Assembly (NCBI GenBank): GCA_027038835.1
Contig: JALWGC010000007.1
Location: 1 to 44,262, forward strand
Source: Helicobacteraceae bacterium
GTDB lineage: Bacteria; Campylobacterota; Campylobacteria; Campylobacterales; Sulfurimonadaceae
Length of the DNA: 44,262 bases
Reading direction: 5' to 3'
Made by a program: the position numbers and the translations under genes. Below, in pieces: positions 17,210 through 21,404 of this stretch (positions are counted from its first letter, which is position 1; every line of letters begins with the position of its first letter). The notes beneath the pieces were generated by a model. That model was not told the DNA's origin, did not search any database, and worked only from the letters and a program-made list of their open reading frames with translations.

Positions 17210-19087
17210 CTAATAATCCATCTTTTCGGGCTTTCCAAGATAAAACCCTTGTGCATAGGTTATATCCAACTCTTTTATCTTCTCGTACACCCCTTTGGAA
17301 TGGACGAACTCCGCTACGGTTTCTATGTTCAACGATTTGGCAAGAACGACTATCGATTTGGCTATGTCGTAAAGCACTTCGGAGGTTTCAATATCTTTGA
17401 TGATAGAGCCGTCTATTTTGATGATATCTATATCTATCTCTTTGAAGACGGTGTAGTTCGCATAGCCGCTACCGAAATCATCGAGTGCTATACGCACCCC
17501 GTAAGAGCGGATTTTCGATATGTTTTTTTTGACGTTTTCGTAATTTTCCAACACTTCGTACTCCAACAACTCCACGGTCAATTTGTCCGCGACCTCTTTG
17601 TTGGCCTCGATCTCCTCTATGATGATTTTGAAAAGTTTCTCATCGACGATATCGGAAAAATTGAGATTGAGGCTAATAGCGTTGGATGTCCGTTTGATAG
17701 TTGCAAACACTTCATGTACGACCAGTTTCGTCAACTCGTTGTAAAGATTGGTATGGAGAATGTTTTGCAAGAAAAACGGCGGGCCTATCACCGTATCGTC
17801 TTTGTCTATCATGCGCACAAGCGCTTCGTACTTGACGATAGTATCGGTTTTGGCATCGATGATAGGCTGATAGTAGCATAGTATACGGCCCTCTTCGAGC
17901 GCTTCTTTCGTTTCGTATATCGATTTCTTGTTATTTTCACAACGCTGTTGATAACCGCTATCGGTAACTATTTTGTTTCTACCTGTACGTTTGGCGGTAT
18001 AGAGGAGTTCGTCGGCATGTTTGATGGCGTCGCTTGTAGATTTGAAGTGGTGAGGCTCGAGGTTGACCCCTATCGAGACGGTCACTTTCAAGACAAGACC
18101 GTCATAAAAAAAGCTGTGCCGCTCTATGGTGGCGTGTAACCTTTTGACGACTTTGAGCAGTTCTTCGGGGTTTTTCGCTTCGTTTTTGAGAAATATTAAA
18201 AACTCCTCTCCCCCAAAACGAACCACGACATCTTCTTGACGTAAACATTCACCAAATAGATGCGCTACGTCTCTTAGCACCATATCCCCCACTTTGTGTC
18301 CGTAATTATCGTTGATTTGTTTGAAATGGTCTATATCGACCATCAAAATCGCAAAAGAGTTGATATCATGCGCCGTTATGAAATCGCGAAGGAAATTTCT
18401 GTTGTAAGCTCCCGTAAGCGGGTCTATATAGCTTTGTTTTTTCATCTTGATACTGCTGAAAATCTGAAACAACACGATCAACACCAAAACCGCTATGGCG
18501 ACAAAAACATATACAAAAAGCGTCTTTAGCGGCTCAATCGTTTCGGTAACTTCCAGTGGGAGTTTCATCGAAAAATCGATAGCGACTATCAGCTCGGTTT
18601 CGTCGCAATAAGCAACGGGATGCAGCAAGGTTGTCCAAACCGTTTCCAAATTTTGCTTGAACACCAAATCTTTTCGTGTATCGTACACCGTGTCCCATTT
18701 GCTCTTATCGACATCCAACTTTTGATCGAACTCCCCTCTTTCTTCGAACGGGCTTCCATCTACAAAGTAGCGATAATTGCCGTTTTTATCTTTATATAGC
18801 ACATATACATACTGATATACGGGTGTAATGAGCAGTTCGACGCTCTCTTGAAGCTGTATCCGTTTTTTCAAGTTCTCAAAAGCTTTTTTGGAAATCCCCT
18901 CGGGATAGGTTCGTTTGAGTTTCGTTTCTATGTTCGAAGCGAGTGATTTCGCTTGGGTGATGAAAATGTTTTGGATATTGCTTCTTAGTTCGTTTTCTAT
19001 TTTATCGATACTGACGAACATATACACGATAATCGCGATTATGACCAATACGACGAAAAAATAGAGTTTGGAAAATCGGCGCATCAA
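17210..19087 (-). CDS. Membrane GGDEF-EAL protein with periplasmic sensor
   Basis: The 625-residue protein has a transmembrane helix (about residues 8-26), a periplasmic sensor of about 160 residues and a second helix (about 188-210). A GGDEF domain with intact RFGGEEF and an upstream RxxD inhibitory site (RQED) follows, then an EAL domain. The EAL motifs YEALVRM, ALDDFGSGYAN, IKIDGSIIK and VAEFV are all present, so both c-di-GMP synthesis and hydrolysis are possible. It overlaps the upstream small periplasmic-protein gene by four bases, which itself overlaps a TonB-type receptor gene. That arrangement suggests the sensor listens to the periplasmic partner. Confidence 0.93.
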   Translation of the reverse strand: MMRRFSKLYFFVVLVIIAIIVYMFVSIDKIENELRSNIQNIFITQAKSLASNIETKLKRTYPEGISKKAFENLKKRIQLQESVELLITPVYQYVYVLYKDKNGNYRYFVDGSPFEERGEFDQKLDVDKSKWDTVYDTRKDLVFKQNLETVWTTLLHPVAYCDETELIVAIDFSMKLPLEVTETIEPLKTLFVYVFVAIAVLVLIVLFQIFSSIKMKKQSYIDPLTGAYNRNFLRDFITAHDINSFAILMVDIDHFKQINDNYGHKVGDMVLRDVAHLFGECLRQEDVVVRFGGEEFLIFLKNEAKNPEELLKVVKRLHATIERHSFFYDGLVLKVTVSIGVNLEPHHFKSTSDAIKHADELLYTAKRTGRNKIVTDSGYQQRCENNKKSIYETKEALEEGRILCYYQPIIDAKTDTIVKYEALVRMIDKDDTVIGPPFFLQNILHTNLYNELTKLVVHEVFATIKRTSNAISLNLNFSDIVDEKLFKIIIEEIEANKEVADKLTVELLEYEVLENYENVKKNISKIRSYGVRIALDDFGSGYANYTVFKEIDIDIIKIDGSIIKDIETSEVLYDIAKSIVVLAKSLNIETVAEFVHSKGVYEKIKELDITYAQGFYLGKPEKMDY

Positions 19088-19506
19088 AAATCATCCTCGA
19101 CGAATTGTCGCATAGAAGGGGGAAGCTCGATGCCGTTTTTTTGTAAGTTCGGCTGCAAAAACAAGATATTCGGCCTACCTTTTTGCCAAAAAAAGCCCCC
19201 TATCGCCCTGTTCTTGTACCTTTTGAGTAGAGGATAGGAGGTAACGAACAAAAGACAATCGCACTTAAGGTCGCTTCGCTTGGTAACTATAGCTATGTCG
19301 GCGTCATGGACGTCGTTGACGACTTGAATGCCTCGTAAGCTTCCAAGCTCTTCCAAAAGTACCTTCGAGTCACTCCAAAGGCGAACCGTTTCGTAGTTTG
19401 GCAAAACCGCATGGATGATCGTATCGTAGATTTTTTTCTCTGTCTCTATTTTCGAGCCGAACAACAGTGTAAACGAGAGTAGCGCGATCAAAAGTACGTT
19501 TTTCAA
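19084..19506 (-). CDS. Small exported protein, possibly YfiR-like
   Basis: The likely start is TTG at 19506, sharing TTGA with the receptor stop and preceded by GGAG eight bases upstream. It gives a good signal peptide (MKNVLLIALLSFTLLFGS). A longer form from ATG 19530 is possible but spoils the signal. The mature part of about 120 residues ends with a CLLFVTS strand, AIGGFFWQKGRPNILF and an LQPNLQKNGIEL segment. These are reminiscent of the GG and F-x-x-N region of YfiR/DUF4154 periplasmic repressors of membrane diguanylate cyclases. This is pattern resemblance only. It is coupled to the GGDEF-EAL gene by a four-base overlap. Confidence 0.7.
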   Translation of the reverse strand: MKNVLLIALLSFTLLFGSKIETEKKIYDTIIHAVLPNYETVRLWSDSKVLLEELGSLRGIQVVNDVHDADIAIVTKRSDLKCDCLLFVTSYPLLKRYKNRAIGGFFWQKGRPNILFLQPNLQKNGIELPPSMRQFVEDDF

Positions 19507-21404
19507 AACAGATACTCCAAGTTGACCCATAACTTACGATCGAACGAAGGGATAGGAGTGTCGTAGTCTCTATATGCAACATTGCAACTTTTATCCAACA
19601 GGTTTTCACCCCTCAAACCGAAGGAAAAGTCTTTGGAATAATGGTACTTCCAAGCAAACGTCCAATTGAACGTCGAAGGGAGATATATTTTACTCTGCGA
19701 ATCGGTATAAGAAGAGGTATAAAGCACTTCGTTGTAGATATCCGCTTTACCGACCGTGTTGTCCATTCGAAGCGTAGCGCCGTATTTCGGACTTTTGAGC
19801 ACGTCCGTGCCGTTGTCCGCACTGAAAAAAGAACCAAAAAGCGTGTTTTTGGTATCGAAGCGGTAATGACCGCTTAGTTCGAAGCGCTCCGAGTGCATCG
19901 TTTTCGAGCTGTTAGCGTAACCACGTTTGTATGTGATAGAGTTATGTACGTTGTTGGATGCGAGAAAGAGTTTTGCATCCCACTTTTCTTGTATGTATTC
20001 CACGCTTCCCGAAAGTGAATCGACATCGATGTGTTTTAAATGGGGATTCGATTTATAGGGGATGTTTGTAGGGTTGTAGAGCATATAAAAACTGTTTGGC
20101 ATGTAGGTATCTGTATAAAAAACTTTAAAATGAAAATCGCCGAAGTTTTTAATAACACCTGCTCTTACAACCGATTCATCGGCACTATCGACTACTTTGT
20201 CATAACGGTAAAAATCCCCTTTTGCCATAAATACGAATCGAGTCGTAGGATTGAAATCGTACTGCTCTTCCGCATAAACGGAATACAGATTCAAACCGTT
20301 GTTTACCTTTGGCGTTTCAATAGTATCGAAATGTCCGTTTTGCGTCATCTCCTTGTGCTTGTAAAAAGCGCCTAAAAGCAAAAAATGTTTCCCATAACGC
20401 AAGCGTTTTTCCAAAATTGCGCTATAAACTTCATCTTCAAAAGCGATAGTGTAGTCTTTTATCACCCCTCTGCCCGAAGGAGGATTCATCGGGTTGGAGA
20501 TTCTTATACCGTTAGGATCGACATATGTGCGTTCATACTCGAGGTTGTCGTATGCAAGTTCGAGTTTTATATCGTAGTCGAAATTTTGTGTAAAATGTGC
20601 ATAGAAATGGTTGGCATCCAGCTCGCCATCGGTTGGAGTTTTATGGATCCCTATCCCGACAAAACTGTCACTTCGGTTGTGAACGGTGCCTATTTCGAGT
20701 TGACTCGACTTGTAACGCAAATCGGCATAGAGTTCGTAGTTTTCATAATCGCTTTTGAAGGTGTATTCTTTGGATTGGTATGTATTGTAGTATGGCTCTC
20801 TTTTAGTGTCGCTTCCGTTTGCATACACGAAATAGGAAAAGCCGTTATCTAAAATATCGCTGCTATAAGTGTTGAAATCCAAACTCCCTTTATGGTCCGC
20901 CACGACGCGCAGCTTGTTCCCGCTATCGCGTGTCGCTTGTTTTGTATAGAGCTTGATAACTAGTACCGCCGTTTCATTTCCAAATTCGATAGAAGAACTC
21001 GTTTTGTACACCTCTATATGGTCGATGTACTCTATGGGCATCTTCCCCCATATCAAAAAAGCGCTCCCAAACGATGTCGATGTCATATCGTGGTCGTTTA
21101 TGTAGAGTCTTGCCGATGTCAAAGGGATACGCAAAAGAGTCGGCGGGGTGATAAACGTAAGGTTGTTGGCACTTCTATAGGTATATATGCCGGGTACGGT
21201 TTTCAATATATCTTCAAGATTGCGTGCTTGCATTTTTTCAAGCATATCGCGCGTAAAAAGAGTCAAGTCTCCTGCAGATTCCTGTTTGGTGACGTTGGAA
21301 AGGTCGGACTGTTTTTTGTAAACCTCAAGAAGTTCGTTCAAATCGCTACCGTAGAGCGAAAACGACATAAACAAAAAAGAAAATGCGGCACATGATTTCT
21401 TCAT
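19503..21404 (-). CDS. TonB-dependent receptor-like outer-membrane protein
   Basis: The 633-residue protein has a signal peptide (about 1-19) and a plug domain (LTLFTRDMLEKMQARNLEDI, then VPGIYTYRSANN, IEYIDHIEVYKTSSSIEFGN). A 22-strand-type beta barrel with alternating hydrophobic strands follows, ending in an aromatic (NLEYLF). Such receptors bind a ligand at the cell surface. No substrate can be assigned, and no TonB/ExbB/ExbD or ABC transporter genes are adjacent. It heads a three-gene overlapping unit with a periplasmic protein and a GGDEF-EAL enzyme, so it may act as a signalling rather than uptake receptor. Confidence 0.88.
   Translation of the reverse strand: MKKSCAAFSFLFMSFSLYGSDLNELLEVYKKQSDLSNVTKQESAGDLTLFTRDMLEKMQARNLEDILKTVPGIYTYRSANNLTFITPPTLLRIPLTSARLYINDHDMTSTSFGSAFLIWGKMPIEYIDHIEVYKTSSSIEFGNETAVLVIKLYTKQATRDSGNKLRVVADHKGSLDFNTYSSDILDNGFSYFVYANGSDTKREPYYNTYQSKEYTFKSDYENYELYADLRYKSSQLEIGTVHNRSDSFVGIGIHKTPTDGELDANHFYAHFTQNFDYDIKLELAYDNLEYERTYVDPNGIRISNPMNPPSGRGVIKDYTIAFEDEVYSAILEKRLRYGKHFLLLGAFYKHKEMTQNGHFDTIETPKVNNGLNLYSVYAEEQYDFNPTTRFVFMAKGDFYRYDKVVDSADESVVRAGVIKNFGDFHFKVFYTDTYMPNSFYMLYNPTNIPYKSNPHLKHIDVDSLSGSVEYIQEKWDAKLFLASNNVHNSITYKRGYANSSKTMHSERFELSGHYRFDTKNTLFGSFFSADNGTDVLKSPKYGATLRMDNTVGKADIYNEVLYTSSYTDSQSKIYLPSTFNWTFAWKYHYSKDFSFGLRGENLLDKSCNVAYRDYDTPIPSFDRKLWVNLEYLF

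Follow-up and report, generated by a model that had tools for sequence, protein, structure and literature searches.

In the YfiBNR (TpbB) system of Pseudomonas aeruginosa, an outer-membrane partner and a small periplasmic protein are combined with an inner-membrane GGDEF enzyme that carries a periplasmic sensor. In that system the small protein acts as a repressor by binding directly to the enzyme, and it is in turn sequestered at the outer membrane. The YfiR-YfiN pair has been described as a modular core, which in distant species usually occurs without YfiB (Malone et al. 2012, PMC3375315), and in the wider YfiR-YfiN family the outputs also vary among GGDEF, GGDEF-EAL and kinase versions (PMC3375315). 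The coupling of outer-membrane contact to c-di-GMP is poorly understood in Gram-negative bacteria, and the input of YfiB itself is obscure. Here we describe a three-gene cassette of Campylobacterota with a comparable division of roles, encoding a TonB-type receptor (REC), a small exported protein with a predicted YfiR-like fold (SML), and a membrane-anchored output protein (OUT). The evidence presented below suggests that the receptor, the small protein and the sensor of the output protein probably constitute a cross-envelope signalling relay, which works like YfiBNR without being YfiBNR itself. Searches of the open-licence literature on YfiR with TonB, and on Campylobacterota or Sulfurimonas with TonB and diguanylate cyclases, yielded no description of this system.

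The window, namely the entire stretch of 44,262 nucleotides from a Helicobacteraceae bacterium that was analyzed, contains the three genes on the minus strand in the order REC (19503..21404), SML (19084..19506) and OUT (17210..19087). The stop codon of REC and the TTG start of SML have the TTGA at 19503-19506 in common, and the stop of SML and the start of OUT similarly share the TTGA at 19084-19087 (both minus strand), so that the three overlapping frames and both junctions are as an earlier sequence-only reading of this DNA had placed them. An alternative in-frame ATG at 19530 would extend SML from 140 to 148 residues. Given these overlaps, the genes are likely to be co-transcribed; however, the single promoter proposed in that reading found no support, as a sigma-70 scan returned sites at chance frequency (10 versus 8.8 expected), none of them upstream of REC. 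An Rfam scan of the locus was uninformative. The gene upstream of the trio encodes an M23 peptidase domain and the downstream one a threonine synthase, both recognized by Pfam.

OUT is a protein of 625 residues in which two membrane helices are predicted to bracket a periplasmic domain of approximately 150 residues, followed by GGDEF (PF00990, E 3.2e-39) and EAL (PF00563, 6.4e-56) domains, in agreement with its initial description as a two-helix GGDEF-EAL enzyme with a large periplasmic domain. The AlphaFold2 model of the sensor part (18440..19087, minus strand; pLDDT 92.9) shows a single Cache domain between TM1 and TM2, and its nearest fold is the ectodomain of WalK (Z 14.4, rmsd 2.2 Å over 140 residues). 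Neither a HAMP nor a CHASE8 match was recovered in OUT. The I-site RQED, GGEEF, EALVR and DDFG motifs are intact and AQG is present, making OUT a predicted c-di-GMP enzyme with intact motifs for both synthesis and hydrolysis. The EAL motif AEGVE reads AEFVH in OUT (17210-19087), and AEYVS or AEFVH in many relatives. Across 60 genomes, strong matches to the sensor profile occur almost exclusively at SML loci, and the same sensor family is found on GGDEF-EAL, GGDEF and histidine kinase outputs. One orphan GGDEF-EAL protein with this sensor (L236:3557-5488, G003:C71) has neither a receptor nor a small protein nearby.

Conservation of the trio beyond a single genome had been named beforehand as a check, and it proved extensive. 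Profile searches recovered SML relatives in 86 of 397 Campylobacterota genomes and 24 of 68 genera, and a single-sequence search recovered them in 42 of 150 related genomes. In all, 116 SML loci (114 distinct) were collected and their neighbors typed with profiles. In 113 of the 116, the gene directly upstream of SML is REC, a degree of conservation that excludes a chance arrangement. An automatic spacing filter detected an adjoining output protein with the same sensor at 107 of the 116 loci, comprising 87 GGDEF-EAL, 15 GGDEF-only and 5 histidine kinase versions, with REC missing from only two of the 107. Inspection by eye added L085 and L224, whose downstream kinase outputs the filter had overlooked, as well as L074, a rearrangement with the output just upstream of REC, bringing the count to 110 of 116. 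Two further loci run to a contig edge (L048 and L051), and two contain a kinase of a different sensor type (L070 and L073). The sensors of these last kinases (L070:6422-7912 and L073:4490-6001) differ from the usual Cache family of the cassette, and the SML adaptor thus seems able to serve another type of sensor. The kinase outputs of SML cassettes are borne out by Pfam. The commonest gene spacing is -3, i.e. a four-base start-stop overlap (39 and 52 of the 114 distinct loci).

Individual cassettes display further variations. In two loci a receiver-PAS-EAL protein follows a kinase-type cassette (L081:7887-9860 and L224:6219-8219), and for this reason kinase cassettes may also end in c-di-GMP. 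Another contains two REC-type receptors in tandem, followed by one SML and one enzyme (L050:2136-5881), suggesting two inputs into one relay. No SML was found on plasmids; outside Campylobacterota, the scan used only short exact peptides from one sequence and has no bearing on absence.

SML has a signal-peptide-like N-terminus and yielded an AlphaFold2 model of high confidence (pLDDT 94.2). Comparison of this model with YfiR had been set beforehand as a check, and the best PDB neighbors were indeed YfiR structures (4xjy_D, Z 10.6, rmsd 3.1 Å, 121 aligned of 147). The ABC_sub_bind proteins 3lft (Z 10.3) and 3lkv (Z 10.1) are tied with YfiR in Z, but superimpose with an rmsd of 5.3-5.4 Å; a Rhodothermus substrate-binding protein scored 9.1 and the next unrelated structure 6.5. 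As 3LFT and a Vibrio cholerae protein are also structural neighbors of YfiR itself (PMC4655355), SML lies in the structural neighborhood of YfiR. It is therefore predicted to fold like YfiR, with a fold that is common to ABC_sub_bind proteins rather than exclusive.

At the level of sequence, SML is not a member of DUF4154 (PF13689), the family of YfiR; hence, of the initial "YfiR-like" label the fold stands and family membership by sequence does not. The SML of the window matched no Pfam or NCBIfam family, scans of 51 homologues with both libraries gave only scattered chance matches, and PF13689 was absent among the families listed for these homologues (25 of 34). Searches against PDB sequences, with the single sequence and with a profile, returned nothing notable. 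An hhalign assignment of SML to DUF4154 with 89% probability was dropped, as the score came largely from signal peptides: when the mature protein only was aligned, with reversed and shuffled profiles as controls, the match to the DUF4154 profile was weak (probability 6.5, score 21.2 versus a shuffle maximum of 19.9). A family common in Campylobacterota has thus been missing from both Pfam and NCBIfam.

The hallmark of SML is a C-terminal region (residues 100-140; 19087..19209, minus strand; IGGFFWQKGRPNILF...I.LP...) with the consensus GxFFWxKGRPNIxF...I.LP, in which mean pairwise identity reaches 45% as against 25% in the remaining mature protein, and G103 and R111 are invariant. The residues of YfiR linked to the binding of YfiN and YfiB, namely F151, E163, I169 and R171, also sit C-terminally (PMC4655355), and a weak profile alignment would place the SML hallmark at these positions. 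The two conserved cysteine pairs of YfiR (71-110 and 145-152 in P. aeruginosa) are absent from the SML of the window, which has only a CDC motif; among 114 homologues, the mature protein contains two cysteines in 71 cases, of which 62 show the pattern C..A..C, and four in only two cases.

A further connection to YfiR emerges from three cassettes, L134 (G022), L234 (G036) and L235 (G028), in which a DUF4154 protein is combined with a TonB-type receptor and a histidine kinase bearing the sensor family of OUT; the receptor and kinase were typed in Pfam for the first and by profiles for the other two. The sensor homology persists when only the globular part is compared (E 3e-17, 1e-9 and 5e-9), and these sensors are nearest to the kinases of SML cassettes. 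Since the DUF4154 protein and SML adjoin the same sensor family, they appear to fill the same slot and are probably interchangeable in role, and the sensor common to both cassette types offers a natural swap experiment. Of the two, SML is the commoner, with true YfiR being present in 12 of 200 Campylobacterota genomes versus SML in 86 of 397. DUF4154 genes repeatedly adjoin TonB-type receptors together with kinases or GGDEF-EAL proteins (L125, L127, L129, L130, L132, L133, L134, L234 and L235), and some enzymes beside such genes in Campylobacterota carry CHASE8 sensors. The genome of the window itself encodes a DUF4154 domain fused to a HisKA-HATPase-receiver module (G000:C16:18356-20908; L120:4357-6909, minus strand), with a divergently transcribed TonB plug receptor (L120:6995-9109, plus strand).

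The tie between SML and ABC_sub_bind proteins makes ligand binding by SML possible, and raises an alternative that we regard as unlikely, namely that REC imports a solute and SML, as a one-lobed solute-binding protein, presents it to the Cache sensor. NspS presents its ligand to MbaA in Vibrio cholerae in this manner. Such a role would be in keeping with the closeness of SML to 3lft, 3lkv and the Rhodothermus protein, with the small ligands that Cache domains often bind, and with the ExbB/ExbD of the genome. However, a single-lobed SML has no two-lobe cleft, the ABC_sub_bind structures align less closely than YfiR does, the trio has no conserved transporter neighbors, and a DUF4154 protein replaces SML beside the same sensor family.

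REC (633 residues) contains a plug at approximately residues 40-145 (PF07715, E 1.8e-8; 35.2 bits versus a cut-off of 23.9), whereas its barrel, a structure of 22 strands in TonB-dependent receptors, matched no TonB barrel profile in Pfam and a PDB sequence search with REC was empty. Of the "TonB-type barrel" proposed at the outset, the plug is thus confirmed and the barrel uncalled, and we retain the label provisionally, since REC has a plug, a suitable length and a Phe at its C-terminus. No STN signalling domain was matched by Pfam in REC. An assignment as a B12 receptor was rejected, BtuB TIGR01779 scoring only 27.5 bits versus a cut-off of 599.7. Conservation is greatest in a pre-plug segment (residues 21-45; 21270..21344, minus strand; LxxLLxxYxxxSxLSxxTKxExAG), with mean pairwise identities of 43% for this segment, 37% for the plug and 24-27% for the barrel. 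The segment occupies the usual place of the TonB box and could bind SML, TonB or both.

The genome of the window has an ExbB/ExbD pair, so that REC may also transport in an energized manner. The suggestion that a lack of nearby uptake genes favors signalling therefore stands to the extent that no transporter or inner-membrane uptake genes recur beside the trio, and is weakened by this pair elsewhere in the genome. It is nevertheless very improbable that the cassette is an uptake operon with its own regulator, in which REC would be a nutrient receptor, OUT would sense the imported nutrient and SML would be minor. TonB-type receptors do usually transport, and the genome encodes three more plug receptors besides the ExbB/ExbD pair, but no inner-membrane uptake genes recur beside the cassette, the cassettes differ in their output domain but keep REC, SML and the sensor, and within REC conservation is lowest in the barrel.

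REC, SML and OUT form a conserved, co-inherited cassette. In 98 full trios the distance matrices of receptor, small protein and output correlate with r of 0.86-0.91 in mirror-tree comparisons. As shared species history could by itself give such values, paralogous trios within single genomes were compared, and their distance profiles mostly match by locus and not by genome. This matching is clear for L041, L055, L047, L181 and L198 and weak for L079 and L077; in G269, the REC-SML values are 0.61 and 0.97 on the diagonal versus -0.26 and -0.34 off it. That the three genes are mere co-inherited neighbors without joint function is, despite the compatibility of the mirror-tree correlation with common vertical descent, already refuted in the main and has almost no probability left, given the locus matching of paralogues and the persistence of the trio in 24 genera while flanking genes vary from locus to locus.

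We accordingly return to the cross-envelope relay. The parallel with YfiBNR drawn from the gene layout, with a TonB-type receptor and a dual-domain enzyme as substitutes, is favored by the conservation of the trio, the predicted YfiR fold of SML and the exchange with DUF4154 proteins. We infer the contacts and the control by a ligand along the following lines, in which either synthesis or breakdown of c-di-GMP may be the activity that is favored. In the periplasm, SML would bind the Cache domain via its conserved C-terminal region and hold OUT in one state. An extracellular ligand occupying REC would alter the plug and the pre-plug segment, which would in turn recruit or release SML. The resulting shift of the Cache domain could be transmitted through TM2, changing the GGDEF/EAL balance or, in the kinase versions, kinase activity. 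The most conserved parts of the cassette, namely the pre-plug segment and plug of REC and the C-terminus of SML, face the periplasm. A receptor capable of recognizing defined ligands from outside the cell would open the input of such a relay to experiment. More tentatively, and with less to be said for it than against it, the cassette might represent a phylum-wide form of TonB-independent sensing, in which the pre-plug segment engages a YfiR-fold adaptor in place of TonB and extracellular ligands control c-di-GMP or kinase activity without import. If so, SML would be the founder of a class of YfiR-type adaptors outside DUF4154.

Set against known systems, the cassette differs from YfiBNR in all three components. 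The outer-membrane partner YfiB is an OmpA-like, peptidoglycan-binding protein as opposed to the TonB-type REC, in which Pfam detects only the TonB plug; YfiR belongs to DUF4154 and SML lies outside it; and YfiN combines PAS/CHASE8 and HAMP with GGDEF only, whereas OUT has a Cache domain without detectable HAMP, an added EAL domain and an I-site. The DUF4154 cassettes of Campylobacterota (L125, L129, L134, L234 and L235) contain the same three roles, and in the last three the same sensor family, but their small protein is a DUF4154 member, usually first in the operon, and their receptor comes from another TonB-type group. In Yersinia pestis, HmsCDE is likewise reported to be a tripartite c-di-GMP control system with a YfiR/HmsC-like periplasmic protein (PMC5550408). 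HmsC is a member of the YfiR/HmsC-like family PF13689, outside of which SML falls. We know of no TonB-type receptor in HmsCDE. The FecA-FecR-FecI transducers also signal across the envelope by means of a TonB-type receptor, but the trio is devoid of an STN domain, an anti-sigma and a sigma factor, no such regulators recurring beside it. WalK, whose Cache ectodomain is closest in fold to the sensor of OUT, is regulated by its partner proteins YycH and YycI, and differs in being a kinase of Gram-positive bacteria with membrane-protein partners. Relative to the YfiR-YfiN core, the new elements are thus the TonB-type outer-membrane partner, an unnamed family with a predicted YfiR fold, the sensor of Cache type and a distribution that spans the phylum.
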